Shown: positions 24,190-43,282 of the stretch, one piece after another
How the letters are laid out: each line of letters starts with the position of its first letter
Numbering within the stretch: the first letter of the stretch is position 1
DNA from: Arthrobacter sp. Marseille-P9274
GTDB taxonomy: Bacteria > Actinomycetota > Actinomycetes > Actinomycetales > Micrococcaceae
NCBI RefSeq assembly: GCF_946892675.1
Contig: NZ_CAMPOV010000003.1
Span: 434,001-498,000, forward strand
DNA: 64,000 bases
Reading direction: 5' to 3'
Notes under the pieces: model-generated
Database searches by the model: none
What the model saw: only the letters and a program-made list of their open reading frames with translations
What the model was told of the DNA's origin: nothing
Program-made: the position numbers and the translations under genes

Positions 24190-24645
24190 CTCAAGATCGC
24201 GCGACGATGATGCAGGGCGTCCGGGCGAGACCGGGAACCCTTGATGCGTGCGGGAGTCCGTTTAACGGCGGATTCTCGAGGCACGTCCATCTCCACCGGG
24301 CCGATTTTGTCAGGACGGTCTTCGCGCGCATGCCGTTGCGGGAATTCTCGCTTCCGTGCCCGCTCACGTCGTGTTTCTCGTACCCGAGGTGCTCGTCCAT
24401 CTCCGCTTCCAGAGCGGTGTCCAGAACATTCTTCGTCAGGGGTTCAATAATCCGCCCTGCCCGACGAGCTCGACGCCCTGCTCTTTGGCCTAGGTCAGGA
24501 GATGCTCGCCAGCTCTTGCTGATCCTCATCCGTCGGCACGAGCTCAATGTGTCGCTCATGATCAGTCTTCCCGGCCAAGCAAAGCCTGGCGTGTCAGACC
24601 AACCTCGAATCCACCGTCATTCACACACTCTCCGCTAAATGAGAC
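24190..24645 (-). mobile_element. IS256-family insertion sequence remnant
   Basis: The minus-strand frame around 24300-24460 reads EPLTKNVLDTALEAEMDEHLGYEKHDVSGHGSENSRNGMRAKTVLT, the conserved N-terminal block of IS256-type transposases. The preceding segment (about 24480-24560) carries the family's start in disrupted frames, and the outer end near 24640 looks like the IS left end. After KTVLT the frame is damaged and the rest of the transposase, including the DDE core, is missing. Not mobile by itself. Confidence 0.75.
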
Positions 24646-24723: not shown

Positions 24724-24764
24724 AGGCCGGGACAGGGCCAATGGAACGGATGGAGGGGCCCGGC

Positions 24765-25415
24765 ATGGCAGAGGGAACGATTGCAGTCGGCCGGACGCGC
24801 GCCGAGCATGCTTATCTTGAGTTGCGCGAACGCATTATCGACATGCGCCTGCCGCCGGGGGCGGCCTTGGACGAAGAGGCGCTGATGACCGAGCTCGGGG
24901 TGGGACGCACTCCTATGCGCGAGGCGGTCAAGCGGCTGGAGTCGGACCGGATGCTCACGGTCTATCCGCGCCGTGGCACGATCATCGCCGATGTAAACAT
25001 CAGAGACCTGAAGGCGATTTCCGATGCTCGACGCGTGCTGGAAGCCTTCGCGGCGCGCCGGGCGGCTGAGCTGGCCACGGATGAGGACCGGGTAAGACTG
25101 AAGGAGTGCTTGCAGTCTCTGGCGGAGGCTGCGTCAGAGTCCAACCGGGCATCCATCGACTTGGATGAACAGATCCACCGGACGGTATATGCGATCATGC
25201 GCAACAGCTACGTGGAAGCGACGCTGACCCAGTACTTTAGCCTGTCCCAGCGGATGTGGAACTTCGTGCTGTCGGGTATGGCACCGATTACCGGCAATGT
25301 GCAGGAGCATGTTGCCCTGCTGAGTGCGATTATCGACGGCGATGCGGACCTTGCAGCGGCAATCGCTGAGGAGCATGTCACGCATTTTGAGGAGCTGGTG
25401 CGCAGCGCCCTGTAG
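24765..25415 (+). CDS. GntR/FadR-subfamily (FCD domain) transcriptional regulator
   Basis: A 216-residue regulator. The N-terminal winged helix (AEHAYLELRERIIDMRLPPGAALDEEALMTELGVGRTPMREAVKRLES) precedes an FCD ligand domain (DARRVLEAFAARRAAELAT, the IDLDEQIHRTVYAIMRNSYVE segment, LSAIIDGDADLAAAIAEEHVTHFE). GGAGGGG at 24752-24758 favours the ATG at 24765 over the upstream ATG at 24741. It has a decayed near-copy beside dimethylglycine oxidase (16778-17311), and on its own 3' side lies a fragment of the oxidase, so it is probably the original regulator of that betaine-derived operon. Confidence 0.9.
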   Translation: MAEGTIAVGRTRAEHAYLELRERIIDMRLPPGAALDEEALMTELGVGRTPMREAVKRLESDRMLTVYPRRGTIIADVNIRDLKAISDARRVLEAFAARRAAELATDEDRVRLKECLQSLAEAASESNRASIDLDEQIHRTVYAIMRNSYVEATLTQYFSLSQRMWNFVLSGMAPITGNVQEHVALLSAIIDGDADLAAAIAEEHVTHFEELVRSAL

Positions 25416-25429
25416 CCTGCGTACCAGGC

Positions 25430-26005: not shown

Positions 26006-26063
26006 GCTGTGTACGCGGTGCGGGCCTATTGCTTTCTTGCCATGCCTGTTTGAGGAGGAAAAG

Positions 26064-26768
26064 ATGTCGCTGGACTTCACGTACGAAAACATTGACAAGG
26101 TTATTGACCGTTCGCACTGGGTTGCTCCGGAGATCGATCCGCAGAGGACGATGCTGTTGGTGCTGGATATGCAGAAGGCCTGTGCCGAGCCCGGCGGTGC
26201 GATGTACATCCCCAGTGTCGGCGGCGCGCCGGAGGGCAAGGACACCGTTCAGCCGGTCCTCAACGTGCTGGAGGCCTGCCGGGCCAAGGGCATCCCGGTG
26301 GTGTGGTCGCTGTGGGGCCTGCGCGGTGACGGCAAGGACGCCGGGTTCGCCGACCGCAAGTGGGGCCTGGAGGGGCAGCTGGCCGAGTTCCCCGGTTCCT
26401 GGGGCAACGGCGGCGACGAACTGGTGGCGGAACTGGTTCCGGCCGAGGGCGAGCCCGTGATGCGCAAGCACCGGTTCTCCTCGTTCTACGGCACCGCGCT
26501 GAACGAATACATGCGCCGGGCCGGCGCCGACACCCTGGTCATTGCCGGGCTGTCCACCGCCTGCTGCCAGATCACCACCGCGATCGACGGGGCGAACCAG
26601 GACTACAAGATCATCGTCCTGGCCGACACCACCGCCGCCGTCCCGGCCGGCGATATCGAGAACACCCCGGAGGGCTACGGCCAGCACTGGGAGTTCCTGC
26701 GCAATATCCAGGCCCACCACGGCGACGTACGCACCAGCATCGAGTTCCTCGAACTCATCGGCGCCTGA
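26064..26768 (+). CDS. Isochorismatase-family cysteine hydrolase, copy 1
   Basis: A 234-residue protein with the cysteine-hydrolase triad: Asp in LLVLDMQKACAEPGG, Lys in MRKHRFSSFYGT, and Cys in GLSTACCQITTAIDGANQDYKIIVLAD. The family hydrolyses isochorismate, nicotinamide or other small amides and carbamoyl compounds; the substrate here is unknown. A strong GAGGAGGAAAAG ribosome binding site precedes the ATG. First gene of the operon and identical to the gene at 42445-43149. Its presence in both arms of the sugar cluster suggests a role in that pathway rather than a general one. Confidence 0.88.
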   Translation: MSLDFTYENIDKVIDRSHWVAPEIDPQRTMLLVLDMQKACAEPGGAMYIPSVGGAPEGKDTVQPVLNVLEACRAKGIPVVWSLWGLRGDGKDAGFADRKWGLEGQLAEFPGSWGNGGDELVAELVPAEGEPVMRKHRFSSFYGTALNEYMRRAGADTLVIAGLSTACCQITTAIDGANQDYKIIVLADTTAAVPAGDIENTPEGYGQHWEFLRNIQAHHGDVRTSIEFLELIGA

Positions 26769-26835
26769 CCAGCAACCCCCGGCCGGCACCGCCCGGTTCA
26801 CATGCAACCCTGCAACACGCAAAGGAACACCAAGG

Positions 26836-27363
26836 ATGTCTCTTAACGGCAAGCACGTCGCCCTGCTGATCGAGGACGAGTACCAGATCCTGGAAGGCTG
26901 GTACCCCAAGCTGCGGCTGGAAGAAGCCGGTGCCCGCGTCTCGGTCATCGGTTCCGGAACGAAGAAGAGCTACGGATCCAAGGAACACTACCCGATGGAT
27001 GCCGATGCTTCCGCGGCCGAAGTCGCTGCCGCCGACTTCGACGCGGTCATTGTTCCCGGCGGCTTCGCACCCGACAACATGCGCCTGCACCCCGAAATGG
27101 TCGCCCTGGTACGCGACGCCCACCAGGGCGGCAAACTCGTCGCCGCGATCTGCCACGGCGGATGGATGCTCGCCTCCGCCGGCGTCCTGGCCAACGGTAC
27201 CCGCGCCACCGGCTACCAGCCCATCCGCGACGACGTGGTCAACGCCGGAGGCACCTGGGTCGACGAACCCGTTGTCATCGACGGCAACGTCATCACCTCC
27301 CGCACCCCCGTGGACCTGCCCGCCTTCGGCGCCGCCCTGGTCCACTACCTCGAAAACAACTAA
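26836..27363 (+). CDS. DJ-1/PfpI-family protein, copy 1
   Basis: A 175-residue class I glutamine-amidotransferase-like protein. The PfpI pattern is VALLIEDEYQILEGWYPKLRLEEAGARVSVIG, an AVIVPGGFAPDNMR segment, and the nucleophile elbow ICHGGWMLASAGVL with the reactive Cys. Members are glyoxalases (methylglyoxal), deglycases or peptidases. In a sugar-oxidation cluster a carbonyl-detoxifying role is plausible but unproven. It lies 67 bp after the isochorismatase-like gene; an identical copy is at 41850-42377. Confidence 0.88.
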   Translation: MSLNGKHVALLIEDEYQILEGWYPKLRLEEAGARVSVIGSGTKKSYGSKEHYPMDADASAAEVAAADFDAVIVPGGFAPDNMRLHPEMVALVRDAHQGGKLVAAICHGGWMLASAGVLANGTRATGYQPIRDDVVNAGGTWVDEPVVIDGNVITSRTPVDLPAFGAALVHYLENN

Positions 27364-27422
27364 CCCCAGCAACCCACAGGCCCACCCGGCTGGCCGTCCC
27401 TGGCCCGCCAGAAGGAAGCATC

Positions 27423-28547
27423 ATGAAAATCACCAGCGTAACCGCGACTCCACTCGGAGTGCCTCTCGATGAGGAACTCAGATGGGGCGCCATGGTTGTT
27501 AATGTCAAGGGCGGAGTCGTCGTCAGGATAACTACCGACGAGGGGGTCGAGGGCATCGGCGAGGCTGGTTTTTCGGCCGCCTATTTCCCCACCGTCGGTC
27601 CGATCATCAACGGGCAGCTCGGGCCCATGCTGGTCGGTCGGGATCCCCGGGACATCGGCGCTCTTTGGCAGGAAATGCTCAATGCCACTCATATGTGGGG
27701 ACGCCGCGGCATCGAAACCTATGCTTTGAGCGGCATTGACATCGCCCTGTGGGACCTGCTGGGTAAAACAAGCAACCAGCCCGTATACCGTCTGCTTGGT
27801 GCATCCAAACCGAAGGTCCGCGCGTACTTCGCTCCCTCACTGAAGCCCACGCCAGCCATCGTCGAAGAAGTCAAGGAAGCCGTCGACAACGGCTTCACCG
27901 CCATGAAGCTGCGCGTGACCGGCGATCTGGCCTCCGCCGTCGAACTCATCGGCTCGGTACGCGATGCCATAGGCCGGAACCCAGACATCATGGTTGACGC
28001 CAACATGTCCTACGACCGCCGCGGCGCCTACGAACTGGCCAAGGAGCTCGAGCCCTTCCGCCTGACCTGGCTCGAGGAGCCGATCCTCGCACGCAGCCTG
28101 AGCCAGTACGTCGAAGACAACACCTGGCTCAGCGACCGCATCAATATCCCTCTGGCTGGCGGGGAATCGTTGTTGACACGGTACGAGTACATCGACCTGC
28201 TCAGCCGCCGAACGTTCGACGTGCTCCAGCCGGACTGCACGAGCGTCGGCGGCATCACCGAGGCAAAGCGTGTCGCCGATATGGCCAGCGCCTGGAACAT
28301 CACCTGCGTTCCCCACATCGCCTGCTCGTCGGGAACCGGGATCGCCCTGGCGGCAGGTCTGCACATGATCCTGGCCTGTGAGAACTCCCCCATGATCGAG
28401 TTCGACGCCTACGGCGGTCCGGGCTGGGACGGCCTGCTGGTGGATCCGTTGGAGGTCAAGGACGGATTCGTGCAGGTTAAAGATGCTCCGGGCCTGGGAG
28501 TGGAACTGAGCCCCTCCGCCTTTGACGTCTACCACCTCGACCTCTAG
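27423..28547 (+). CDS. Mandelate racemase/enolase-superfamily sugar acid dehydratase
   Basis: A 374-residue protein. The capping domain comes first, then a barrel with K-L-R at AMKLRVTGD, metal ligands VDANMSY (Asp), LEEPI (Glu) and LAGGESL (Glu), and the catalytic Asp/His dyad LQPDCTSVGG and VPHIACSSGTG, plus IEFDAYGG near the end. This set of residues is that of acid-sugar dehydratases in the mandelate racemase subgroup. Together with the KDG-type kinase and KDPG-type aldolase that follow, it should dehydrate an aldonate to a 2-keto-3-deoxy acid. GAAGGAAG precedes the ATG. The exact sugar cannot be read from sequence. Confidence 0.88.
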   Translation: MKITSVTATPLGVPLDEELRWGAMVVNVKGGVVVRITTDEGVEGIGEAGFSAAYFPTVGPIINGQLGPMLVGRDPRDIGALWQEMLNATHMWGRRGIETYALSGIDIALWDLLGKTSNQPVYRLLGASKPKVRAYFAPSLKPTPAIVEEVKEAVDNGFTAMKLRVTGDLASAVELIGSVRDAIGRNPDIMVDANMSYDRRGAYELAKELEPFRLTWLEEPILARSLSQYVEDNTWLSDRINIPLAGGESLLTRYEYIDLLSRRTFDVLQPDCTSVGGITEAKRVADMASAWNITCVPHIACSSGTGIALAAGLHMILACENSPMIEFDAYGGPGWDGLLVDPLEVKDGFVQVKDAPGLGVELSPSAFDVYHLDL

Positions 28548-28577: not shown

Positions 28578-29201
28578 ATGATGACTACCGCCCCTACCGC
28601 CGAACAGGTTGCCGAGTGCATCGGCGCTGCCCGTCTCCTTCCGGTGCTGCGGACCCGCAGCGCTGAGGAGGCGCATGGATTGGCTATGCGCCTCCTCAGC
28701 CTGGGTTTGACCTCGGTCGAGCTGACTACCACCACCCCAGGATGGCAGCAGGTGGTTGCCAGCGTGCGCGCGGAGGCGCCCGAGGCTTTGGTAGGCGTTG
28801 GGACCATCGGTTCCGTGTCGGACGCTGAGGCGGCAGTGAGTGCCGGGGCACACTTCCTCGTCAGCCCTTACCCTGTGCCGGGCGCCCGGCAGGCCGCCCA
28901 GGAGCAGGGCACGCTTTTCATTGAAGGCAGCTTTACCCCGGGAGAGCTGGCGGCAGCCTCCAGCCGGGGCGTCACCAAGCTTTTCCCTGCACACGTCGGC
29001 GGAGTCTCATATCTGAAATCCATGCTGGCGGTCCTGCCGGGCGCGCGCATTATTCCCACCGGCGGCATTCCCCTGGCGGAGGTTTCGGCCTGGCTGAACG
29101 CGGGTGCCTATGCCGTCGGCGTGGGCAGCGACCTGTATAGCGGTGGGGATCTGGACGGAAAGGTTCAGGCCCTGCTGAGCAGTCTGGAGGCAAGGCCATG
29201 A
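28578..29201 (+). CDS. KDPG/KDPGal-type aldolase
   Basis: A 207-residue class I aldolase with Glu in LTSVELTTTTPGWQQVV, the segment VGVGTIGSVSDAEAAVSAGAHFLVSPY, and the Schiff-base Lys in GVTKLFPAHVGG, followed by IIPTGGIPLAEVSAWLNAGAYAVGVGSDL. It would cleave a 2-keto-3-deoxy-6-phospho sugar acid into pyruvate plus glyceraldehyde 3-phosphate. Its stop overlaps the kinase start (29198-29201), so the two are coupled. Confidence 0.9.
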   Translation: MMTTAPTAEQVAECIGAARLLPVLRTRSAEEAHGLAMRLLSLGLTSVELTTTTPGWQQVVASVRAEAPEALVGVGTIGSVSDAEAAVSAGAHFLVSPYPVPGARQAAQEQGTLFIEGSFTPGELAAASSRGVTKLFPAHVGGVSYLKSMLAVLPGARIIPTGGIPLAEVSAWLNAGAYAVGVGSDLYSGGDLDGKVQALLSSLEARP

Positions 29202-30136
29202 CCCGGATCGCGGCGATCGGCGAGGCCATGGTCGAGCTGACACACCAGGACGAGCGGACGCTTGCCCTGAACTATGCCGGTGACACGCTGAACACGGCAA
29301 CGTACCTGGCCAGACTGAGCGGGCCGGAAGTCCAGGTCGACTATGTCACCCGTGTGGGCAACGACTGGTACAGCAGCCAACTGGTTTCCTGGATCGAAAG
29401 TGAAGGACTCGGCTCCGCGTTGATTGACCGGGTGGAGGGCGGAACCCCGGGCCTATACCTGATCCGAACGGCATCCAACGGAGAACGCAGCTTCACCTAC
29501 CACCGCTCCGAATCCCCGGCCCGCGGCCTATTCGGTCCCGATCACGACCCGGAAGTGGCCGAAGCCCTCCAGGCCTACGACGTCGTCTACCTGTCGGCGA
29601 TTACCCTGCAGATCCTCAGCCCGGAAGCCAGGGAGTGCCTCTGGCAGACCTTGGACGGCGTCCGCCGGTTCGGGGGGAAGGTCGCTTTCGATTCAAACTA
29701 CCGCCCGGCAGGATGGACCAGCGCGGACGAGGCCAGAAGCGCCATCACTACGACCCTGAAGCGTACGGATTGGGCATTTCCGACGTTTGACGACGAGCAG
29801 GTGCTGTTCGGCGACTCGAATCCCGATAGCTGTGCCCGACGGATTCTGGAGTCGGGCGTCGGGGAAGTAGCAGTAAAAACCGGGGCGTGCGGCTGCCTGG
29901 TGCGCACGAATTCCCTGAAACAGACGGTCCCAGCCGAGCACGTGCCGGCAGTCGTTGACACTACCGGTGCCGGCGATTCATTCAACGCCGGGTACCTTGC
30001 CGCACGGATCAGGGGCGAGGCCCCGGGCGCTGCTGCCCAGGCAGGACATCGGCTGGCAGCCAAAGTTATCCAGTCGCCGGGAGCGATCATCCCGGCCACC
30101 GGCCACACTCGTTCTTGCCGGACCGTCGCGCCGTGA
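29198..30136 (+). CDS. 2-keto-3-deoxygluconate kinase-like PfkB sugar kinase
   Basis: A 312-residue ribokinase-family protein: IGEAMVELTHQDERTLALNYAGDTLNTATYLARLSG at the N-terminus, VAFDSNYRPAGW in the middle and DTTGAGDSFNAGYLAARIRGE with the catalytic Asp at the C-terminus. These are the hallmarks of KDG/KDGal kinases. It should phosphorylate the product of the dehydratase at the terminal carbon before the aldolase. Overlaps genes on both sides by four bases. Confidence 0.9.
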   Translation: MTRIAAIGEAMVELTHQDERTLALNYAGDTLNTATYLARLSGPEVQVDYVTRVGNDWYSSQLVSWIESEGLGSALIDRVEGGTPGLYLIRTASNGERSFTYHRSESPARGLFGPDHDPEVAEALQAYDVVYLSAITLQILSPEARECLWQTLDGVRRFGGKVAFDSNYRPAGWTSADEARSAITTTLKRTDWAFPTFDDEQVLFGDSNPDSCARRILESGVGEVAVKTGACGCLVRTNSLKQTVPAEHVPAVVDTTGAGDSFNAGYLAARIRGEAPGAAAQAGHRLAAKVIQSPGAIIPATGHTRSCRTVAP

Positions 30137-31011
30137 GGCGGCAGAAACCCGAAGTCGCCCTGGACGCCGACGCAGATCTGGCCGAGGGCCCCTGGTGGGA
30201 TGAATCGACACAGCAGCTCATATGGGTCGATATCTTTGCCGGCCAGATCCATTACTTCGACCCCTCGAAGGGTAGCGACAGCAGCATCAATGTTGGACAA
30301 CCTGTGGGCATGGCCGCCGGACGTGAATCAGGCGGACTGGTCTGCGCCCTCAGGGACGGTATCGGAGTGATTGAACCGGATGGGACCACGGTGTCATTGA
30401 CTGTGGAGATAGAGGCCTCGCGCCCTGGTAACCGGATGAACGACGGGGCCTGCGACCCGGCCGGCCGGCTGTGGGCAGGCACGATGGCTATGGATCTTAG
30501 CCCCGCAGCCGGCGGCCTGTATCGGATCGGCCCGGATCTCGAATCCAAGAAAATGATTGACCGCGTGTCGATCTCGAACGGGCTTGATTGGAGCCCGGAC
30601 GGCCGCACATTCTATTTCATTGACTCGCCTACCGGCCGCATTAACGCCTATGACTTCGACGTCAGCACTGGAACCATCAGCCGGCCACGCGTCCTCGCCG
30701 AGGTACCCCATCCGGTGGCGACACCGGATGGCATGGCCGTGGACGCAGACGGAACGCTGTGGGTCGCTATCTGGGACGGCGCCTGCCTGCACCGCTACAG
30801 CCCTGACGGGGAACTGCTGGAAGTAGTACAACTGCCGGTCTCCCGCGTCACCAGTGTGGCGTTCGGAGGCAGCAGACTGGATCAGCTCTTCATCACCACA
30901 GCCCGTCACGGCGTTACCGAACACTCGCTGGCCGCAGAGCCGTTGGCCGGGGCCATTCTCTGCCTGGACCCAGGCGTCTGCGGCATCGCGCCGCACCGGT
31001 TTGCCGGGTGA
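30133..31011 (+). CDS. SMP-30/gluconolactonase-family lactonase
   Basis: A 292-residue six-bladed propeller: LAEGPWWDESTQQLIWVDIFAGQIHYFDP carries the metal-binding Glu, then GNRMNDGACDPAGRLWAGTMAMD (Asn), SISNGLDWSPDGRTFYFIDSPTGRINAYD (Asn/Asp) and TPDGMAVDADGTLWVAIWDGACLHRYSPDG. The ligands for a calcium or zinc lactonase are in place. It would open an aldonolactone produced by the GMC dehydrogenase. I used the GTG at 30133, which overlaps the kinase stop as GTGA; a TTG six codons upstream is possible. Confidence 0.9.
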   Translation: MRRQKPEVALDADADLAEGPWWDESTQQLIWVDIFAGQIHYFDPSKGSDSSINVGQPVGMAAGRESGGLVCALRDGIGVIEPDGTTVSLTVEIEASRPGNRMNDGACDPAGRLWAGTMAMDLSPAAGGLYRIGPDLESKKMIDRVSISNGLDWSPDGRTFYFIDSPTGRINAYDFDVSTGTISRPRVLAEVPHPVATPDGMAVDADGTLWVAIWDGACLHRYSPDGELLEVVQLPVSRVTSVAFGGSRLDQLFITTARHGVTEHSLAAEPLAGAILCLDPGVCGIAPHRFAG

Positions 31012-31537: not shown

Positions 31538-32173
31538 TCATCCCAGTGTCTTGGCAGCTGCTGAAATGAGAAGCGCCATTGAGGTTGACCCGGCATCCGC
31601 GTAGCCGAGCGTCCGTTCGCCCAGATAACTGGCCCGGCCCTTGCGGGCCATCATGTTTTCGGTCGCGTCCCGGCCGCGCTCGGCTGCGGCCGCGGCAGCG
31701 TTTAGGGCGTTGCCCACTTCCTCTCCGGAGGAGATTGCACGTTCGAAGGCGTCAACGGCGGGGGCCAGTGCGTCGTAAAGGGTCTTGTCGCCGACCGTTA
31801 CCTGTCCGCGGTCGACAATGCCTTGGGCGGCCGCTGCCAGGGCCTTCCCAAATGCGGGGCCGTCCAGAACTGCCAGGTCACCGCAGGCCAGGGCCATACG
31901 CAGGAAAAACGTGCCGTAAAGCGCCCCGCTGGAACCGCCGACCTTGCCCACCAATGTTACGCCCACGGTCTTGAGTAGCTCGTGCGGGGACGAACTGGAG
32001 TCTGTCGTGAGCGCAGTGGTGACCGCAGCGAATCCTCTTTGAAGGTTTGAGCCATGATCGCCGTCTCCGCTTGTGGAGTCGAGTTCGTTCAGCGCGTCCT
32101 TGTTCGTCTCAATGAGCCGGGCGCTTTCGTGGATCCACTCCCGCAGGTCCTGGACGTTGATTATTTGGGCCAT
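31538..32173 (-). CDS. DhaL-type kinase ADP/ATP-binding subunit
   Basis: A 211-residue all-helical DhaL domain. The metal/nucleotide loop is STSGDGDHGSNLQRGF, the glycine-rich segment is VGKVGGSSGALYGTFFLRMA, and the C-terminal signature is RKGRASYLGERTLGYADAGSTSMALLI. The Asp residues that hold the two magnesium ions look intact. The ATG at 32173 has GGGGAG at good spacing; an ATG at 32179 overlaps the DhaK stop. No DhaM-type phosphotransferase gene is present, so ATP is the probable phosphate donor. Confidence 0.9.
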   Translation of the reverse strand: MAQIINVQDLREWIHESARLIETNKDALNELDSTSGDGDHGSNLQRGFAAVTTALTTDSSSSPHELLKTVGVTLVGKVGGSSGALYGTFFLRMALACGDLAVLDGPAFGKALAAAAQGIVDRGQVTVGDKTLYDALAPAVDAFERAISSGEEVGNALNAAAAAAERGRDATENMMARKGRASYLGERTLGYADAGSTSMALLISAAAKTLG

Positions 32174-32175: not shown

Positions 32176-33177
32176 TCATACTCCCCACCGGATCGAGGGG
32201 GTGCACACGGGTGCATCCCACAGTTGCTTCAGTTCATCGTCAAGTTCGAGCACGGTCAGCGCAGCGCCGGCCTGGTCGAGGGAGGTCAGGTAATTTCCGA
32301 CCAGGCTGCGGACCGGTTTGTGCCCTTCTGCTTGGAGAGCGCGCTGGAATTCGCCGTAGAGCAGGTAAAGCTCGCTTTGGGGGGTGGCACCCATTCCGTT
32401 GACGAACACGAGCAGATCTGAGCCCGCGGCCGGCTGCAGATCCGTGAGTACTTCGCCGATCATCGTGGCGGCGATTTCTGCTGCACCGGATAACGGGACC
32501 CTTTGCCGTCCGGGTTCGCCGCTGATGCCTATGCCCAGTTCCATTTCTCCGTGCGGCAGGTCGAAGATCGGTTTGCCCCGCAGGGGCGGTGTACATGAGG
32601 AAAGACCAACGCCGAAGGTCCGGGCCCTGCTGTTGACCCTGCGGGCGATGTCGGCAACGGTGCCCAGGTCGTCGCCGCGCTCGGCAGCGGCACCGGCGAT
32701 TTTCTCTACCAGGATCGTCGCTCCCAAGCCGCGGCGGCCGGCGGTCCCGGGAGTGTCTTTGACGGCAACATCGTCATTGACGAGCACGGACTCGATCCGG
32801 ACGTCTGTGAACGCGAGCAGCTCGGCTGCCATCCCGAAGTTCATGACTTCGCCGGTGAAGTTCTTGATGATATGCAGCACGCCGGCGCCCGTGTCTGCAG
32901 CCTGGGTTGCTGCGATGATCTGGTCCGGTACAGGAGAGGTGAAGATCTCTCCTGGACAGGTGGCATCGAGCATGCCGACGCCGACATAGCCGTTGTGGAG
33001 CGGCTCGCAACCGGAGCCGCCGCCGGCAACCAGCCCGACTTTTCCAGGCGTGGGGCCCGAGGCGCGCGTGACAATACGATGCCCGGCATCAAATTGCACT
33101 AGGTCAGGGTGCGCGCCGGCAAATCCGGTCAGGTAGTCGGTGACGGCGTCAGCGGGATCGTTTAGGAATTTCTGCAT
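32176..33177 (-). CDS. DhaK-like kinase substrate subunit with all three active-site residues replaced
   Basis: A 333-residue Dak1-domain protein with normal length and fold markers. In ordinary DhaK the substrate carbonyl is held through GGGSGHEP (His56), NYTGD (Asp109) and GIGIHGEPG (His218, covalent hemiaminal; E. coli numbering). Here these read GGGSGCEP, NFTGEVMNF and GIGISGEPG, i.e. Cys, Glu and Ser. The codons are TGC, GAA and AGC, far from single-base typing errors, and the frame is otherwise conserved. It pairs with an intact DhaL, so a working kinase with a different substrate or chemistry is more likely than a dead enzyme. It sits at the end of the ABC transporter operon. Confidence 0.85.
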   Translation of the reverse strand: MQKFLNDPADAVTDYLTGFAGAHPDLVQFDAGHRIVTRASGPTPGKVGLVAGGGSGCEPLHNGYVGVGMLDATCPGEIFTSPVPDQIIAATQAADTGAGVLHIIKNFTGEVMNFGMAAELLAFTDVRIESVLVNDDVAVKDTPGTAGRRGLGATILVEKIAGAAAERGDDLGTVADIARRVNSRARTFGVGLSSCTPPLRGKPIFDLPHGEMELGIGISGEPGRQRVPLSGAAEIAATMIGEVLTDLQPAAGSDLLVFVNGMGATPQSELYLLYGEFQRALQAEGHKPVRSLVGNYLTSLDQAGAALTVLELDDELKQLWDAPVCTPSIRWGV

Positions 33178-33268: not shown

Positions 33269-34438
33269 TCAGTAGGTCTTGGACGGGTGCATATTGCCTT
33301 GGATGTAGGCCTTGGCTGCGTCCACGTTTTCCTTGGTCACAACTTTGGTTGGCACCTCGATGACTTTTGCGACGGTTTCGCCGAGGACCACGCTGCGGAA
33401 GATCGTGTCGATGAAGGTCCTGCCCTGGTCTACAGAGCCGACATCGATGCTGGCGGTGAGTTTGCCTGCCTTGATGGCATCCATTCCTGATACCAGGCCG
33501 TCGGCCCCAACGATGACAACACCCTCGGAACCGTTCCACTGCTTCAGGCCGGCGGCATCGACGGCCTGGGAAGCACCCAGGGCCATGTCTTCATTTTCGC
33601 CGTATATGGCGTCGATGTCGCGATAGCGGGTCAGCAGGTCCTGGGCGGCGTTCAGGCCTTTGTCCCGGACATAGCCGCCGTCGGCGCTGCCGACGACCTC
33701 CAGCCCCGGATTCTCCTTAAGCGCCTGCTCGAATCCGATCTTCCGGGCCTTTGCCCAGTCCGAGCCCGAAGGACCCATAATCTGGATGATCTTTCCTTTG
33801 CCGCCGAGTGTCTTGGCTATGAAGTTGCCGGCCAGGTATCCGGACTGCCAACGATTGTCGTAGCCGATGTTGGAGACGGTCTGGACGTCTTCCTCGGGAT
33901 AGATTTCGACCGGCTGGTTGAACTGGAAGATTTTCGTCCCGCCTTCTGCCGCCTGCTGGTAAACGCTTTGCATGGTGGCGAAGTTTGCGCCGGTGCAGAC
34001 GAGAACGGCATCGAATTTGCGGGCGGTCCAGCCCCGGACGGTACTGATCTGTTGCTCGACGGCGTCGAAGTTTCCTGTGGGTGATGACCGCTCCCACTTC
34101 CACTGGACGCCGTAGGCCTTCTCTAGTTCGGCCATGCGGCCAAAGGCCGCCTTTTCCATCTGGTCATACCATTCGGACAGGATCGGAGGCGTCCATCCCA
34201 GTTGGAGGCTGCGTCCGTTGACCAGTTTCTTGACCTCCGCGTCGTAGGCGGCACCGCCGGCACTGGCCACGCCACCGCTGCCGCCGGCGCCTCCGGCAGC
34301 CGCGGTCGGGGTGCTGACCGTCGAGCACGCCGAGAGCAGCCCGGTCCCGGCCAGCAGACCGGCACCAATGCCCATCTGGGTCAGGATGTTCCGGCGGGAA
34401 TACCCGCCCTTGGCTTGATTTTTTTCGGTTGCGGACAT
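33269..34438 (-). CDS. Sugar ABC transporter substrate-binding lipoprotein (RbsB-type)
   Basis: A 389-residue periplasmic-binding-protein-like receptor. The N-terminus has a twin-arginine type start (GGYSRRNILTQMGIGAGLLAGTG) ending in the lipobox LLSAC, so it is probably exported folded and anchored on the membrane outside. A Gly/Ala/Ser linker is followed by a type I sugar-binding fold with FDAVLVCTGANFATMQS and IDAIYGENEDMALGASQAVDAAG. Related proteins bind ribose, xylose, tetritols or other polyols; the ligand here is unknown. Confidence 0.9.
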   Translation of the reverse strand: MSATEKNQAKGGYSRRNILTQMGIGAGLLAGTGLLSACSTVSTPTAAAGGAGGSGGVASAGGAAYDAEVKKLVNGRSLQLGWTPPILSEWYDQMEKAAFGRMAELEKAYGVQWKWERSSPTGNFDAVEQQISTVRGWTARKFDAVLVCTGANFATMQSVYQQAAEGGTKIFQFNQPVEIYPEEDVQTVSNIGYDNRWQSGYLAGNFIAKTLGGKGKIIQIMGPSGSDWAKARKIGFEQALKENPGLEVVGSADGGYVRDKGLNAAQDLLTRYRDIDAIYGENEDMALGASQAVDAAGLKQWNGSEGVVIVGADGLVSGMDAIKAGKLTASIDVGSVDQGRTFIDTIFRSVVLGETVAKVIEVPTKVVTKENVDAAKAYIQGNMHPSKTY

Positions 34439-34501: not shown

Positions 34502-35524
34502 TCAGGTATGGACAAGTCGGGTCTTCAGCCGGGTCGAGCGTTCCCTGAGCAGGGTGCTGACCCGGTCGAAGACCACCGCGGCCAGAAGGACAGCTCCGGT
34601 GACGACCTGCTGCCAGGTTGAGCTGACTCCTGAGATGTTGATGGCGTTGGCCGTTATGCCCAGGACCAGTGCGCCGACGACGGCGCCGAAAGCGGTGCCC
34701 CTTCCGCCGGTGAGAGCAGCACCGCCGATGATGGCGGCGGCGATGGCCGCGATTTCGTATCCGATGCCCATGGTCGGGGCGACCGTAGAGGTCCGGCCGG
34801 CCATGAGCATCCCGGCGATTCCTGCCATCAGGCCGCTGACGACATAGGCCTGCACCTTGATGCGGTTGACGGGAACGCTGGAAAGCAGCGCGGCCTGGGG
34901 GTTGCTGCCGACACCGTAGGCATGGCGTCCGAACCGCGTCCATTTCAGCAGGATGCCGATGGCCAGCACCGCGGCGAAAGCTATGAGGATCGGGACTGTG
35001 ATGAACCCGAACGGCTGTTCCAGCCCCGCGATTACGTAGTACTCGGGCAGCATGTAACCGTTCATCGGCACCCCGTTTGTCCAGAGGAACAACAGACCGC
35101 GGGCGACTCCAAGCATGGCCAGGGTCGCGATGAAGTCGGGCAGGCCGAGCCTGGTGATCAACAGGCCGTTGATCAGGCCGAGGAAGGCTCCGGCCGCGAC
35201 TGCTGCCAGCAGGCCGATGATCAATGGCAGTCCGTGGAGGATGGTGTATGCCCCTACGGCGGCGCTGAGTCCCATGACTGAACCCACCGAGAGGTCGATA
35301 CCGCCGGTAATCAGCACGACCGTCATGCCGAGAGCCAGGAGCAGGACGAAGACCATTTGATTGGCGACGTTGCCGGCATTGGTCCCGGAGGCAAAGCCTG
35401 GGAATGTCACGGACATGATGATCACCAACGCGGCGACCAGGACCAACGCGCCGGAACTGGGGTTCTGCAAAGCTCGGCCCAGCCGGCCGGTCGGGGCATT
35501 CGTTCCTGTAATGGCGGCCATCAT
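34502..35524 (-). CDS. Sugar ABC transporter permease 2 (RbsC-type)
   Basis: A 340-residue membrane protein with about ten helices and the family segments LALGMTVVLITGGIDLSVGSVMGLSAAVGAY, GLPDFIATLAMLGVARGLLFLWTNG, VGSNPQAALLSSVPVNRIKVQAYVVSGLMAGIAGML and IAAIAAAIIGGAALTGGRGTAFGAVVGALVL. It starts with a four-base overlap on permease 1 and likely forms a heterodimer with it. Confidence 0.93.
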   Translation of the reverse strand: MMAAITGTNAPTGRLGRALQNPSSGALVLVAALVIIMSVTFPGFASGTNAGNVANQMVFVLLLALGMTVVLITGGIDLSVGSVMGLSAAVGAYTILHGLPLIIGLLAAVAAGAFLGLINGLLITRLGLPDFIATLAMLGVARGLLFLWTNGVPMNGYMLPEYYVIAGLEQPFGFITVPILIAFAAVLAIGILLKWTRFGRHAYGVGSNPQAALLSSVPVNRIKVQAYVVSGLMAGIAGMLMAGRTSTVAPTMGIGYEIAAIAAAIIGGAALTGGRGTAFGAVVGALVLGITANAINISGVSSTWQQVVTGAVLLAAVVFDRVSTLLRERSTRLKTRLVHT

Positions 35525-36654
35525 GCCTTCCTAGCGGTTGAGAGGGAAGATTCAGGTTTTTGCCCCGCGTCGCCCGTCTGATCAGCCGGCGGGGCGGCCT
35601 GCTGCGGATCCGGACCGGAAGCTGGCTCCCGGTCGGCCCGGTTCGCAGAGGACAGCACCCTCGGCCCCCGCAGATGGCCGGCGGTCCCGACGAGTTGGGC
35701 GGCGACCAGGCGCTGCAGACCGCGGTCGAAGGCGACGGCAATGACAATGCTGGCTCCGGTTACGATGTTGAACCACATTGGATCTACGCCGATAAGTTGC
35801 AGTCCTTGGCTCAGCGTGGCCAGGAACAGGGCGCCGACCACGCTCCGCCAGACACTGCCGCGGCCTCCCGAGAGGGCGATGCCGCCGAGTACGGCCGCTG
35901 CGATGGCGCTGAGTTCGTAGCCCTGTCCCAGCCCGGGCTGGACGGAGTTCAGATGAGATGCCAGCAGGACGCCCGCGGCTCCGGCCACAGTACCCGAGAT
36001 CAGGTAGACGCTGAAGGTGAGCCGACGGACGCTCAGGCCCGCAAGGAAGGAAGCTTCGCGGTTCGTGCCGACGGCGAAGAGTCCTCGCCCGAAGGAAGTG
36101 GCAAGCAGGATCCACTCGAGTAGCCCCACAACGGCCAAGGTGATCCAGAATCCGGTCGGAACACCAAGGAAGCTGCCTTTGGTCAGGGCAGCGAATGCCG
36201 GGGAGTCGATCCCGGTCAGCTGCACGTGGGAGGTAATGACTTGCAGGGCACCGGCACCGATGCTGAGACTGGCCAGCGTGACAATGAACCCGTTTATCTT
36301 GAGGACTGCGATAAAGAACCCGTTGATGGCACCGGTGACCACGCCCGTGGCAATGCCGGCCAAGATTCCGGATACCAGGGAAGCCCCGTTCATCAACGTC
36401 ATCAGGGTCATGGCCGCACTGAGTCCGGTCACTGAACCTACCGACAGGTCGAAGCCGCCGGTGATCAGGGTAAAGGTCATCCCGGCCGCCAACAGGATGA
36501 TGAACAGCGACTGGATGAGCAGGTTCCGGATGTTTTCTCCGGTCATGAAGAACGGAGAGGTGATGCTGAAGTAGAAGACCGCGGCGGCCAGCGCCAGTGC
36601 GATGGGAAGCCCGTCGATGGAAGCGGCACGAGTAAGGCGGTAGCGGATGCTCAT
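35521..36654 (-). CDS. Sugar ABC transporter permease 1 (RbsC-type)
   Basis: A 377-residue permease: LLAAGMTFTLITGGFDLSVGSVTGLSAAM, LKINGFIVTLASLSIGAGALQV, VGTNREASFLAGLSVRRLTFSVYLISGTVAGAAGVLLAS and LSAIAAAVLGGIALSGGRGSVWRS are typical of RbsC/XylH. It carries an unusual hydrophilic, Pro/Ala/Gln-rich C-terminal tail of about 50 residues after the last helix. The ATG overlaps the ATPase stop by four bases. Confidence 0.93.
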   Translation of the reverse strand: MSIRYRLTRAASIDGLPIALALAAAVFYFSITSPFFMTGENIRNLLIQSLFIILLAAGMTFTLITGGFDLSVGSVTGLSAAMTLMTLMNGASLVSGILAGIATGVVTGAINGFFIAVLKINGFIVTLASLSIGAGALQVITSHVQLTGIDSPAFAALTKGSFLGVPTGFWITLAVVGLLEWILLATSFGRGLFAVGTNREASFLAGLSVRRLTFSVYLISGTVAGAAGVLLASHLNSVQPGLGQGYELSAIAAAVLGGIALSGGRGSVWRSVVGALFLATLSQGLQLIGVDPMWFNIVTGASIVIAVAFDRGLQRLVAAQLVGTAGHLRGPRVLSSANRADREPASGPDPQQAAPPADQTGDAGQKPESSLSTARKA

Positions 36655-38279
36655 GCCATGTTCTCCTCACATGTGTTTACAGCCACCCCTGTGCTGCCGC
36701 GGGCGGCCATGGCCATGACGGCCTCTGCAGTTTCGTTCTCGGACTGTTCATTTCCGGGCCGCCCGACCCCGGGCAATTCGCCGACCAGCCGTCCCTCCCG
36801 CATGACGACGACACGGTCACTGAGGCCAAGCAGTTCAGGCAGTTCGGAGGAGATGACGACGGCCGCACCTCCTTTATCTACAAAGTCGTAGATGAGCCGG
36901 TAGATTTCGGCCTTGGCCGCAACGTCCACGCCTTGGGTCGGTTCGTCGAAAATCAGCAATGAGGGGTTACTGAAGAGGCACCGGGCCACGATTGCCTTCT
37001 GTTGGTTGCCTCCGCTGAGGTTGGTGATTTTCTGCTGCGGTCCGCTGGTCTTGATCCCCAGGTCTTGAATGTAAGCACGGGCCAGAGCTGTTTCACGGCG
37101 ACCGTCCAGAACACCCAGGGCGCGGGAAACCCTCGAAAGGTTGGAAACGGAGATGTTCTTCGCAACCGAGAGCGATCCCAGAATGGACTGCACTTTGCGT
37201 TCCTCGGGCACGAGCGAGATACCTCTTTTCATCGCCTCCCGGGGGCTGGCGATGTCGACCTTGCTCCCTTCGACAAAAATGCTGCCTCTGTCAGGCTTGT
37301 CGGCCCCGAGGATGACCCGGGCCAATTCGGTCCGTCCCGCTCCTGCGATACCCGCGATCCCCAGAACCTCGCCCCGGTTCACAGTCAAGGAGACCTCCCG
37401 CAGAAGCGGATACCGGGTGACTGCTTCCAGCCGCAGGTATTCGCTGGGCGGTGGCCGGTGTTCTCCCACACGGCCGTTGTGGACGGTTGTGTGGCCGGAG
37501 GAGCGCTTCCGTCCGACCATGAGACGGACGAGGGAATCGGCGTCGTGGTCGGCCGGGTCGACAGTCGCTACCCATCTGCTGTCACGCAGGACAGTGATCA
37601 CGTCCGCCAGGCCAAACAGCTCATCAAGGCGGTGGGTCACCCAGAGCAGGGCCACCCCCCGGTCGCGCAGCCGGGCCATGTGCCCGAAAAGCATCTGACG
37701 TTCGCCGTCTTCCAGACCCGAGGTCGGCTCGTCGAGGATGACGACCCTGGCGTCGAATGCCAGCGCCTTCAGAATCTGCACAACATGCTGTTTGAGAGCG
37801 CCCAGGCTGCCGGCCGGGCTGTCCAAGTCCTCGGCCGTCAGCCCGAACTCGCCGCTAAGCTCAGCAACACGGCGCCGCATGGCGGCCTCGTCCAGCAGGA
37901 ATTTGGACCGCCTGAGCTCGCGCCCGAAAAAGACATTCTGCACTACGGTCAGGTCAGGGGCGAGGGTCTGTTCCTGATAGATGGTGCTGATGCCCAGCTG
38001 CTGCGCCTGCTTCGGTCCTGCAAAACTGCGGGGCGTCCCATCCACCAGCAGCTCGCCCGAATCGGGTTGCTGGGTGCCGGACAGCAACCCGATCAGCGTT
38101 GACTTTCCCGCCCCGTTTTCCCCCAGAAGGGCATGAATCTCACCCGCCCGCAGCTGCAGGCTCACATCGTCCAAGGCAACGACGCCTGGATATTTTTTGC
38201 CCAACCCGCGCGCCTCCATGAGGACGGCAGGTTCCGCCTGCCCTTCTGGCGGGGCTGGTTCCACCGCGTTGTGGGACAT
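36651..38279 (-). CDS. Sugar ABC transporter ATPase (RbsA/MglA-type, two NBDs)
   Basis: A 542-residue duplicated ATPase. The first cassette has LLGENGAGKSTLIGLLSG and VVILDEPTSGLE. The second has a degenerate P-loop, GIAGAGRTELARVIL, with signature NLSGGNQQKAIVARCL and Walker B LLIFDEPTQGVDVAAKAEIY, the usual asymmetry of RbsA-like proteins. It energises the two permeases. First gene of the transporter-DhaKL operon; AAAGGAG precedes the ATG, and the 19-bp operator lies 60 bp upstream. Confidence 0.93.
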   Translation of the reverse strand: MSHNAVEPAPPEGQAEPAVLMEARGLGKKYPGVVALDDVSLQLRAGEIHALLGENGAGKSTLIGLLSGTQQPDSGELLVDGTPRSFAGPKQAQQLGISTIYQEQTLAPDLTVVQNVFFGRELRRSKFLLDEAAMRRRVAELSGEFGLTAEDLDSPAGSLGALKQHVVQILKALAFDARVVILDEPTSGLEDGERQMLFGHMARLRDRGVALLWVTHRLDELFGLADVITVLRDSRWVATVDPADHDADSLVRLMVGRKRSSGHTTVHNGRVGEHRPPPSEYLRLEAVTRYPLLREVSLTVNRGEVLGIAGIAGAGRTELARVILGADKPDRGSIFVEGSKVDIASPREAMKRGISLVPEERKVQSILGSLSVAKNISVSNLSRVSRALGVLDGRRETALARAYIQDLGIKTSGPQQKITNLSGGNQQKAIVARCLFSNPSLLIFDEPTQGVDVAAKAEIYRLIYDFVDKGGAAVVISSELPELLGLSDRVVVMREGRLVGELPGVGRPGNEQSENETAEAVMAMAARGSTGVAVNTCEENMA

Positions 38280-38424: not shown

Positions 38425-39129
38425 CTAGCTGCCCATGGAGTGGATGATGTCCTGCTCCACTTCACGGAGGTGCTCGGTGACAGCTTCCTGGGCCGCTTCG
38501 GGGTCTCCCGCGAGTACCGCGTCCAAGATCTTCAGATGGCCTGCGTGGGCGGTTTCGCGCCGGCCGGGCAGGCCGATGACCTGGTGGGAGTACTCTTCGA
38601 AGAGCGGTCCGATGCTCTTTGAGAGTTCAAGGAGCAGCGGGTTTCCGCTGGCACCCGAAATGCCCTTGTGGAACTCCTTGTCCAGTTGCACGAACTCAGC
38701 GTCGCTGATTTGGGCGACGCCAGCCTTCTCCAGGATGTCCAGGAGTTTGTCGCGCTCGTCTTCGTCGATGCGCCCGGCCGCCAGGCCGGCCGCCTTGCAT
38801 TCGAGTGCCAGGCGGACTTCGAACAGGTCGGAGACCGTGTAATCCCCGGTCAGACGCATGTCTGCCGGACCTTTAAGGTTCCTTTTGTCGCTGATAACGA
38901 AAACGCCGACGCCGTGGTCGGTGCGCAGCAGCCCGTTGGCTTCAACCATCCGCAGGGCCTCGCGCATTGAGCTGCGTCCGACACCGAATTCATCGGCCAG
39001 CACGCGTTCGGGGGGCAGCTTGTCCCCGATACTGTAGCTGCCCTCGGTGATCAGCCGTTCCAGCTGCTCTGCCACTGAATCTGCCAGCTTGAGCCTCTGG
39101 ACCCGCTCGATAGGTTTGGTGGGGCACAT
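38425..39129 (-). CDS. FadR-subfamily GntR regulator of the sugar cluster
   Basis: A 234-residue regulator. The winged helix lies at residues 12-80 (LADSVAEQLERLITEGSYSIGDKLPPERVLADEFGVGRSSMREALRMVEANGLL), with an FCD effector domain in the C-terminal part (EVRLALECKAAGLAAGRIDEDE, QLDKEFHKGISGASGNPLLLELSKSI, HAGHLKILDAVLAGDPEAAQEAVTEHLREVE). It lies inside the cluster, and the 19-bp sequence at three cluster promoters has the GGTC/GACC character of FadR-subfamily sites, so it is the probable repressor, released by a pathway metabolite. Direct binding is an inference. Confidence 0.9.
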   Translation of the reverse strand: MCPTKPIERVQRLKLADSVAEQLERLITEGSYSIGDKLPPERVLADEFGVGRSSMREALRMVEANGLLRTDHGVGVFVISDKRNLKGPADMRLTGDYTVSDLFEVRLALECKAAGLAAGRIDEDERDKLLDILEKAGVAQISDAEFVQLDKEFHKGISGASGNPLLLELSKSIGPLFEEYSHQVIGLPGRRETAHAGHLKILDAVLAGDPEAAQEAVTEHLREVEQDIIHSMGS

Positions 39130-39303: not shown

Positions 39304-40026
39304 TCAGCTTCCTGATGCCTCGCGCCACGTCGAAACCTTCAAATGCGGAATCAGTTCCTCCCAGTCGTAGTCGCCTTCGTGGAAGTACTCGTGGGTGTTG
39401 TAGGTGCCGTCCATGGTGTCCTTGAGCGACTTGGGTCCCGGGAAGCCAATGAAGTTCCACCCCATCTGATCCTTGTTACCGCCGTAAACGGGATCGCAGT
39501 AGAACCCCTGGCGGGTGTGGAGGCACAGGGCCGGGAAGAAGGCCAGTCCCTCGTCAAAGGACCCCTGGAGGAAGGTAGTCACGGCTTCCTTCGTCCCGAG
39601 CGTGACCTTCCCGGGCTTAGGCGCACCGGAAACCGTCTCCAGCATGTCATCCTGGTCCGCTTCAGACAGTTCCTTGAAGCGGGCTCCCTTTTCCAGGATG
39701 GACCGGTCATCGAGGTCCCGGATCCCTTCGCGGTAGGTCTTCTGCATATCTGCCATCCGTGCACGCCAGGCGTCGGCGTAGCGGCCGCTGATCTTCAGGA
39801 AGCCGCTGCCGTCAGCGGCTGCGTAGACGTAGTCGATCCCGGACAGGTACCGGTCGATGAAGACGACGACCCGTGCCTCCCGCGCCCCCGGGTCCTGGTC
39901 CGTGGGAATGATCCGTGCGGTGGCCGCCTCAACGGTTTCCCATTCGTGTTCGGTGAAGAACAGGCCATCTGCGGTATCCGGATCCACCGGGGCTCCGATG
40001 ACCTCCCAGTCTGCTTTGAGCGTCAC
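39304..40026 (-). CDS. Gluconate 2-dehydrogenase subunit 3-family protein
   Basis: A 240-residue small subunit: FFTEHEWETVEAATARIIPTDQDPGAREARVVVFIDRYLSG, then GFYCDPVYGGNKDQMGWNFIGFPG, the signature of gluconate 2-dehydrogenase subunit 3 and FAD-glucose or fructose dehydrogenase gamma subunits. Those partners assist export and maturation of the flavoprotein; no clear Tat signal is visible on this one. It is 28 bp downstream of the GMC dehydrogenase gene. No cytochrome c subunit gene follows, so the electron acceptor is uncertain. Confidence 0.9.
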   Translation of the reverse strand: MTLKADWEVIGAPVDPDTADGLFFTEHEWETVEAATARIIPTDQDPGAREARVVVFIDRYLSGIDYVYAAADGSGFLKISGRYADAWRARMADMQKTYREGIRDLDDRSILEKGARFKELSEADQDDMLETVSGAPKPGKVTLGTKEAVTTFLQGSFDEGLAFFPALCLHTRQGFYCDPVYGGNKDQMGWNFIGFPGPKSLKDTMDGTYNTHEYFHEGDYDWEELIPHLKVSTWREASGS

Positions 40027-40054: not shown

Positions 40055-41728
40055 TTATTTGACCAGGGCTAGGTGCTCTTCGCGGCCCTTTGAATAGACC
40101 TCGGCGATGTATTCGCTGCACCGCCACGCGTTGGCCATCATGGTCAGGGTCGGATTTACGCCGGTCGCCGTCGGGAAACCGGAACCATCGACGACGAACA
40201 CGTTCTCGACCTCGTGCGCCTGACCCCATTCGTTCAGCACGCTCTTCGACGGGTCGGTACCCATGCGGGCCGTCCCATGCTGGTGGCAGGTGTTGCCGGT
40301 CATCTTGTCCAGATACACCGGGACGGTTTTGCGGGCTCCCGCGGCGTCCAGGATTTCGATGTTCTTATCAACCTGCCATTTGCCCATGGCGACGTCGTTG
40401 CTGTGCGGGCGGTGGGTGATACGGGCTACGGGAAGGCCAAATGCGTCCTTGACGTTCGGGTCAAGGTCTACACGGTTGGATTCCACCGGCAGGTCGTGCA
40501 GGATCAGGCCGATCTTCATCGCGTAGTTGAAGTAGTTACGGTCCGCGTCTTTCAGTGCTTCCCCCCAGCTGGGCCGGCCGGGGAAAACCCAGTTGATCGG
40601 ATGGCAGGTCTGGGAAGCGGAGATGATGCAGCCGCCGATATGTCCGCGGCTTTCGTCCGTTTCATAGAACTCCAGCGAGCCGCCACTGATGTAGTTGCCG
40701 GTCCAGCCGTTCAGCGGCTCATCGATGTCCTTATCGAACAGGCCGACCGCGAACAGGTACTCGTGGAAGGTAGCGTTCTTGCCCAGCAGGCCGCTGCCAT
40801 TGGCCAGACCATCCGGGAACTGCGACGACTTGGACAGCATCATTAGACGCGCCGACTCAATCGCACCCAGGGCAAGGATGACGACTTTTGCGTCCTGTTC
40901 GACTTCGTTGCCGTCCGGGTCGATGTAAATGACGCCCGTGGCCTTGCCGTCCCTGCCCAACTTCACCTCGCGGACGAAGCTCTCGGCCCGGACTTCGAAA
41001 TTGCCCGTCGCCAGCGCCTCCGGGATGAAGGTCGTCAGGATATTGGAGCGGGCTCCGCTGGGATCACCGTACTGGTTCCAGAAGCTCGTCTGGTTGAACG
41101 GGTCCCGGCCGTTGTGGTTGTTCGTCACCATGGCATGCGGAATCGGGAAGGCGTTGATGCCAAGCTTGTTGCAGGCGTCGTAGAACCGCTTCCCGTACCG
41201 GGTGGGGCGCAGCGGCGGGCTGGGGTAGCCCTTGCTGCGGTACGGCTCGTACTTGTCGGCGCCCGCGATACCGGAAACTCCAAAAGCCCACTCGACCTTG
41301 GTCAGATACGGTTCCAGGTGCTCATAGCGGAACGGCCAGTCAGCCAGGCTCGCCCCGTCGATGTCACCATGCAGCGAACGCATCATGAAGTCGGATTCCC
41401 TTGGCCGCGGAACCCATCCCGCCCAGTGGTTGGTTCCTCCGCCGACCATCTGCGGCGTCGGCGAGAACGGGAAGCGCTCGGCCTCCGAGTTTTCGTCATA
41501 CCGGATCGTCCGCGGGAACATCTTGGGGTCGGGCCACATGTAGTCACGGTTGACGAACTTCAGTTCATCGCCCGAGTAATGTTCGTGGGCGCGAAGCCAG
41601 GGGCCGCGGTCAAAGCCAATCGTTTTCAAGCCTGCTTCCGAAAGAACCTTCGCAGCGGTTCCTCCGTTGGCGCCGAGGCCGACAACGATCGCGTCAACCG
41701 GCTCTGGCTTCCTCTTGAATGCCGACAT
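40055..41728 (-). CDS. GMC-family FAD sugar/polyol dehydrogenase
   Basis: A 557-residue flavoprotein. The FAD Rossmann motif is VVGLGANGGTAAKVLSEAG. QMVGGGTNHWAGWVPRPRESDF is typical of gluconate 2-dehydrogenase-type large subunits. The C-terminal active-site stretch TCHQHGTARMGTDPSKSVLN and VVDGSGFPTATGVNPTLTMMANAWR carries the catalytic His and the flavin-binding loop. It would oxidise the imported sugar or polyol, probably to a lactone handled by the SMP-30 protein. The frame is open further upstream into the DJ-1 region, but the ATG at 41728 with GAGGAGAG gives the true N-terminus. Confidence 0.9.
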   Translation of the reverse strand: MSAFKRKPEPVDAIVVGLGANGGTAAKVLSEAGLKTIGFDRGPWLRAHEHYSGDELKFVNRDYMWPDPKMFPRTIRYDENSEAERFPFSPTPQMVGGGTNHWAGWVPRPRESDFMMRSLHGDIDGASLADWPFRYEHLEPYLTKVEWAFGVSGIAGADKYEPYRSKGYPSPPLRPTRYGKRFYDACNKLGINAFPIPHAMVTNNHNGRDPFNQTSFWNQYGDPSGARSNILTTFIPEALATGNFEVRAESFVREVKLGRDGKATGVIYIDPDGNEVEQDAKVVILALGAIESARLMMLSKSSQFPDGLANGSGLLGKNATFHEYLFAVGLFDKDIDEPLNGWTGNYISGGSLEFYETDESRGHIGGCIISASQTCHPINWVFPGRPSWGEALKDADRNYFNYAMKIGLILHDLPVESNRVDLDPNVKDAFGLPVARITHRPHSNDVAMGKWQVDKNIEILDAAGARKTVPVYLDKMTGNTCHQHGTARMGTDPSKSVLNEWGQAHEVENVFVVDGSGFPTATGVNPTLTMMANAWRCSEYIAEVYSKGREEHLALVK

Positions 41729-41849
41729 TATTCTCTCCTCTTCGAGACCCAGAAGCTGATGGGCAGGGCAGGGCAGCCCCTCGAAAACCTCTGCCGAAGG
41801 ACAGTCCCCGGCGGGCTTTCGGTTGGGGTGGGCCTGTGGGTTGCTGGGG

Positions 41850-42377: not shown

Positions 42378-42444
42378 CCTTGGTGTTCCTTTGCGTGTTG
42401 CAGGGTTGCATGTGAACCGGGCGGTGCCGGCCGGGGGTTGCTGG

Positions 42445-43149: not shown

Positions 43150-43282
43150 CTTTTCCTCCTCAAACAGGCACGGCAAAACACCACACCGACAGTTAGTAAG
43201 AACCCCAACTGAAAACGTCAACTATTGCGATAGGCATAGAATCGTTGCCAGCCCGCTAGATATGAGATACGCGTCTCAATTC

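Follow-up and report, generated by a model that had tools for sequence, protein, structure and literature searches.

Does a protein that looks like DhaK, the substrate-binding subunit of dihydroxyacetone (DHA) kinase, still act on DHA when all three of its active-site residues have been exchanged? The question is raised by a gene in a 64,000-nucleotide stretch of Arthrobacter sp. Marseille-P9274 (contig NZ_CAMPOV010000003.1, positions 434,001 to 498,000; hereafter the window), in which a DhaK-like subunit lies beside a DhaL partner:

32176–33177, minus strand: DhaK-like subunit (Dak1 family; PF02733, 393.7 bits) with Cys57, Glu110 and Ser219, and the further subfamily marks Phe107, Gly191, Gln302 and Ala306
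31538–32173, minus strand: DhaL, nucleotide-binding subunit (TIGR02365, 206.6 bits, cut-off 138.3), intact

As described in PMC6429413, ATP- and phosphotransferase system (PTS)-dependent DHA kinases alike bind DHA to a histidine through a hemiaminal, and in both DhaK and human TKFC the triose is held in this way, with the phosphate supplied by nucleotide bound to DhaL or to the L domain. The window subunit is encoded by an intact open reading frame of 333 residues, aligns with Escherichia coli DhaK (TIGR02363; PDB 3pnl, 3pnk, 1oi2) over its full length at 45% identity, and is numbered here as the E. coli protein plus one. Where E. coli DhaK has His56, Asp109 and His218 (H/D/H), it has Cys57, Glu110 and Ser219 (C/E/S), within the motifs GGGSGCEP, NFTGEVMNF and GIGISGEPG that an earlier, sequence-only reading of this DNA had reported; these exchanges are accompanied by Tyr107Phe, Ala191Gly, Met302Gln and Ser306Ala, and a 23-residue insert that follows approximately residue 245 in E. 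coli DhaK is missing. His56 reportedly aids hemiaminal formation, and Asp109 is said to be the likely base (attributed to Shi et al., 2011). The simplest reading of the exchanged residues is that the two responsible for the tether have been lost and that Glu preserves the base, so that phosphoryl transfer would proceed untethered. The earlier statement that all three active-site residues are lost holds for the letters and was overstated for acid/base function, because the Asp-to-Glu exchange at position 110 retains the carboxylate, as it does in all eight proteins found with this triad.

We consider it likely, judging from sequence, that the DhaK-like subunit and DhaL form a neofunctionalised two-subunit kinase dedicated to one catabolic module. 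In the proposed mechanism, DhaL would carry the nucleotide and pass its gamma-phosphate to a hydroxyl of the substrate in the DhaK-like pocket, and Glu110, going by residue identity, would take over the base role of Asp109. The substrate would be held non-covalently, because His218 (the covalent hemiaminal) and its helper His56 are both gone; Ser219 and Cys57, again from their identity, may shape the pocket or hydrogen-bond within it. With the tether residues lost, the substrate is therefore probably not DHA, and the subunit probably phosphorylates something other than its current database name says.

The triad is neither a chance event nor a sequencing error, since all three residues are found again in seven further genomes, retrieved by the search for more C/E/S proteins that had been proposed. 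Among the 197 distinct Dak1 proteins readable at all three sites, 189 are H/D/H (E. coli DhaK among them), 8 are C/E/S and none is mixed; the count is based on 199 distinct aligned sequences from the retrieved loci, with repeats removed and the pieces of the broken L112 gene counted apart, of which the contig-end fragment L203 and one L112 piece were unreadable. Read together, sites 57, 107, 110, 191, 219, 302 and 306 spell CFEGSQA in all eight C/E/S proteins and HYDAHMS in 172 of the 189 H/D/H proteins, and the three catalytic residues thus appear to have changed as a set, together with further sites. One H/D/H protein reads HHDAHQQ, so Gln302 is not fully exclusive to the group; three weaker marks lie at sites 115, 123 and 151.

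The eight proteins are 60–90% identical pairwise. Relative to the window protein (genome G000), identities are 74% for L016 (G345), 75% for L045 (G604), 62% for L046 (G580) and 63% each for L159 (G1370) and L160 (G1315), all from genomes of the same family or order, 75% for L073 of Cryobacterium levicorallinum, and 64% for L075 from a metagenome-assembled genome (MAG) of Pseudorhodobacter antarcticus, an alphaproteobacterial member through which the holders span two bacterial phyla. Counting each query's own genome, the C/E/S triad was seen in 3 of the 295 genomes sampled from the window's family, in 2 of 394 from its class and in 3 of 149 relatives of G604. For the family and class samples the residues were read in at most 30 loci each and matches at approximately 44–61% identity fell outside those readings, so diverged members may be missed; E limits lay near 1e-125 in some searches, including that of the relatives of G604, and one scan of genome contigs covered the best 80 matches. 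In the 295 genomes of the Pseudorhodobacter family no match besides the query genome reached E 1e-112 or better, and across 72 genomes of its class the strongest match outside the query reached 52% identity. A mis-binned contig as the source of L075 is unlikely: its contig (L075/L168) correlates in tetranucleotide profile at 0.84–0.95 with five other stretches of the MAG, against 0.63–0.82 with five actinobacterial stretches. Plasmid-borne spread was rejected as well, the 102 matches in plasmid records all falling below 60% identity, a judgement made by identity and not by triad residues.

In a 40-row tree rooted at its midpoint (8 C/E/S and 32 H/D/H rows, E. coli entered twice), the C/E/S proteins form one clade with support 100/100, nested among ordinary DhaK proteins; its sister is L074, an H/D/H protein (99/97). 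The clade persists at 100/99 after removal of the duplicate E. coli row and the seven diagnostic columns, and a single origin of C/E/S from ordinary DhaK would be the simplest history. The proposal of a distinct subfamily is thereby supported, with a triad invariant in all eight members. Loss of the catalytic letters alone might suggest a decaying paralog or pseudogene, as opposed to an altered active site. The probability of decay is, however, negligible: the same replacement residues stand in all eight proteins, the frames and DhaL are intact, the cluster is kept across two phyla, and the ratio of nonsynonymous to synonymous rates (dN/dS) is 0.05–0.21 in 18 of the 28 C/E/S pairs. Saturation affects the other 10 pairs, and dS is high for most pairs overall; the most reliable estimate, from L159/L160 (dS 0.84), is a dN/dS of 0.07.

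The other half of the kinase looks functional, as its nucleotide- and Mg-binding motifs are kept. The window DhaL, intact as had been claimed, begins 2 bases past the stop codon of the DhaK-like gene and carries GDGDHG, GGSSG, GDKT and KGRASY; a DhaL adjoins the C/E/S gene in all eight loci, with GD[AG]DHG, GGSSG and GDKT preserved in each and Lys at the Arg178 position in four. PTS-type DhaK uses DhaM as donor partner, but no match to DhaM (TIGR02364) was found in G000 or in G683, so in these two genomes at least the C/E/S pair would have to do without any recognisable DhaM; for the window genome, given that none was found in it, the phosphate donor is probably ATP. The other six C/E/S genomes have one DhaM each, whose adjoining DhaK is H/D/H in every case, and six of the eight thus also keep an ordinary DhaK.

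This last observation bears on whether the protein could simply be a conventional kinase of trioses (DHA or glyceraldehyde) that works more slowly from a degenerate site lacking the tether. Its 45% identity to E. coli DhaK, the retained carboxylate and a predicted structure with the DhaK fold (mean predicted local distance difference test score, pLDDT, 91.8; compared by VIA-align against Foldseek's top chains) speak for such a kinase, as does a score above the cut-off of the NCBI DhaK model. A redundant copy beside an H/D/H DhaK and DhaM in six of eight genomes would nevertheless be expected to decay, yet the residues are strictly conserved, and the binding protein of the module described below stands beside 0 of 78 control DhaK genes; we regard this alternative as improbable. 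Of the features that define DhaK, Dak1 homology and the predicted fold extend over the full length of the window protein, whereas the hemiaminal-forming His218 is replaced by Ser219 and His56 by Cys57, each in all eight C/E/S proteins. Because a defining feature was tested and found absent, we class the protein, from its residues, as a Dak1-family kinase subunit and not as a DHA kinase.

Nor, among the sequences read, did the triplet turn up in known DHA or erythrulose kinases, in which its being standard would have undone the proposal. The alignments read cover five of the 12 matched PDB sequences; three of these carry His, the other two are laboratory mutants (H56A and H56N), and none is C/E/S. 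The second Dak1 protein of the window genome, a fused DhaK-DhaL (L002; G000:C3:76682-77611), has the same two domains as the window pair, is 41% identical to its DhaK-like subunit, and is H/D/H. It lies between genes for a short-chain dehydrogenase/reductase (SDR) and an RpiB-like isomerase, a neighbourhood reminiscent of tetritol catabolism, and resembles the fused proteins of the ATP-dependent and tetrulose-kinase type (LerK and DerK); the tetrulose-kinase type is fused, H/D/H and set beside SDR and RpiB-like genes, in contrast to the separate genes and C/E/S triad of the window pair. Searches of the open-licence PMC literature yielded nothing pointing to the C/E/S triad or to the module, and the passages of PMC3863723 consulted contained nothing on the active site.

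What, then, might the kinase act on? The pair is embedded in a sugar-oxidation module, whose remaining genes in the window are:

26064–26768, plus strand: isochorismatase-like hydrolase, left copy
26836–27363, plus strand: DJ-1/PfpI-type protein, left copy
27423–28547, plus strand: mandelate-racemase/enolase-superfamily protein, probably an acid-sugar dehydratase (ortholog in L163)
28578–29201, plus strand: 2-keto-3-deoxy-6-phosphogluconate (KDPG)/2-keto-4-hydroxyglutarate aldolase (Eda family)
29198–30136, plus strand: PfkB 2-dehydro-3-deoxygluconokinase (KDG kinase)-like protein (321 bits, under the cut-off of 400)
30115–31011, plus strand: SMP-30/gluconolactonase-like lactonase
33269–34438, minus strand: ribose-type (Peripla_BP_4) solute-binding protein
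34502–35524, minus strand: ATP-binding cassette (ABC) transporter permease 1 (PF02653)
35521–36654, minus strand: ABC transporter permease 2 (PF02653)
36651–38279, minus strand: sugar ABC transporter ATPase, AraG/RbsA type
38425–39129, minus strand: FadR/GntR-FCD regulator
39304–40026, minus strand: Gluconate_2-dh3 small subunit of FAD dehydrogenase (PF13618)
40055–41728, minus strand: GMC dehydrogenase large subunit
41850–42377, minus strand: DJ-1/PfpI-type protein, right copy
42445–43149, minus strand: isochorismatase-like hydrolase, right copy

Co-occurrence with the importer, GMC dehydrogenase and FadR genes, which had been predicted, is found in the C/E/S loci. In unextended loci of approximately 20 kb, all eight encode the solute-binding protein and the two permeases, which occur in 0, 1 and 1, respectively, of 78 controls (every remaining locus of the scan, averaging 18.8 kb in length); the transporter ATPase is in 7 of 8 versus 4 of 78, and GMC, Gluconate_2-dh3, DJ-1 and SMP-30 are in 6 of 8 versus 0 of 78. 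With neighbouring stretches added, six loci have all 15 gene types; L163, where the contig ends, has 14 (KDG kinase is missing), and L075 has 13 (neither FadR nor Eda gave a match, and the dehydratase match is just 33%). The GMC/Gluconate_2-dh3 dehydrogenase, SMP-30 lactonase, enolase-superfamily dehydratase, DJ-1 protein and isochorismatase-like hydrolase are then present in 8 of 8, and KDG kinase, KDPG aldolase and the FadR-type regulator in 7 of 8 each; gene order varies. A non-catalytic ligand sensor or co-regulator, such as DhaQ, the DhaK-like coactivator paralog of the Lactococcus dha operon, is very improbable given that regulator of the module's own, the intact DhaL in all eight loci and a DhaQ model score (TIGR02362) of 213.9, far under the cut-off of 413.25.

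Among the genes searched with window queries, GMC shows the highest conservation (87–95% in the actinobacterial loci), and the nearest solved chains by sequence to its large subunit are FAD fructose and glucose dehydrogenases. Within the own-family sample, GMC at 87% or more occurs in three genomes, the same three that carry a C/E/S DhaK; G614, a fourth genome, has a GMC of 60%, a Gluconate_2-dh3 protein of 50% and, as its best DhaK, the H/D/H protein L052, and in 40 kb there none of the queries for lactonase, dehydratase, DJ-1 and DhaK gave a match. This related module without a C/E/S DhaK also has an aldo-keto-reductase-like gene (judged from the sequence start) and as a whole gave no clue to the substrate. 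Beside some modules lie a Gfo/Idh/MocA oxidoreductase (L075, 12566-17187), a TIM-barrel isomerase-like protein (L156, 1-5400) and more ribose-type ABC genes, and G614 (L175) has genes similar to these neighbours, judged from sequence starts.

The semi-phosphorylative Entner-Doudoroff route is an established pathway, and we infer that GMC, lactonase, dehydratase, KDG kinase and KDPG aldolase make up a route of this kind, the KDG kinase models matching below their cut-offs. The KDG kinases fall into two distant subgroups across the loci (approximately 29% alike), as would be expected of a generic downstream step. DhaK-like subunit, DhaL, GMC, DJ-1 and binding protein, by contrast, recur as close relatives throughout, which suggests that the C/E/S kinase serves the substrate-specific part of the pathway. 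Its substrate is probably module-specific; candidates include polyols, hydroxy acids and aldonates lying upstream of the KDG branch or alongside it.

The gene content can also be taken to favour a covalent variant, in which Cys57 (or Ser219) would form a thiohemiacetal or hemiketal with the substrate carbonyl and the enzyme would remain a carbonyl-sugar kinase with a re-positioned anchor. Cysteine can add to carbonyls, Cys57 is invariant, and a sugar dehydrogenase and DJ-1/PfpI protein make carbonyl intermediates likely; Cys57, however, occupies the His56 position and not that of the bond-bearing His218, and we hold this unlikely. Similarly small is the chance that C/E/S marks a non-hemiaminal Dak branch for substrates without a carbonyl anchor, possibly a sugar-acid carboxylate converted to acyl phosphate as by FakA/FakB, within a sugar-catabolic pathway for which the literature searches turned up no description. 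FakA/FakB phosphorylates a carboxylate in this manner and matches the predicted structure in fold at 11% identity; FakB, with its DegV-type fold, is not known to be a Dak1 protein by sequence.

Several observations weigh against a dedicated kinase with a new substrate. At 410.7, the window protein exceeds the TIGR02363 equivalog cut-off of 406.25, one of five among the eight C/E/S proteins that do so, L159, L160 and L075 falling just short; residues 51–60 of the model, the block with Cys57, have a mean pLDDT of only 63; and DhaM may have been missed in G000 and G683, the latter a MAG. The module, moreover, already contains what is plausibly a full path to pyruvate and glyceraldehyde 3-phosphate that needs no second kinase.

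Two copies of a 1351-bp inverted repeat (26037-27387 and 41826-43176, 99.93% identical) bracket the module, and both contain an isochorismatase-like and a DJ-1/PfpI gene; two more diverged copies occur in L156 with L167, and a second DJ-1 copy in L162. To its left, a 122-residue open reading frame (24191-24559, minus strand) gives a partial Mutator-family transposase match (PF00872, 35.9 bits, profile 24-74 of 379). Stretches 16774-17241 and 24952-25420 are approximately 83% identical in opposite orientation, the second overlapping the greater part of the final two thirds of a gene for a GntR/FCD regulator (24741-25415). A major-royal-jelly-protein-type (PF03022) protein at 44241-45362 (minus strand) adjoins the module.

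For the family, a natural and strictly conserved subfamily without either histidine but with the phosphoryl-transfer half retained offers a way to ask whether catalysis itself needs the tether or only triose specificity does. It is also an annotation trap, because five of its eight proteins pass the NCBI DHA kinase model, and the motifs GGGSGCEP, NF[TS]GE and GIGISG offer a marker for a sugar-catabolic cluster of approximately 15 genes.
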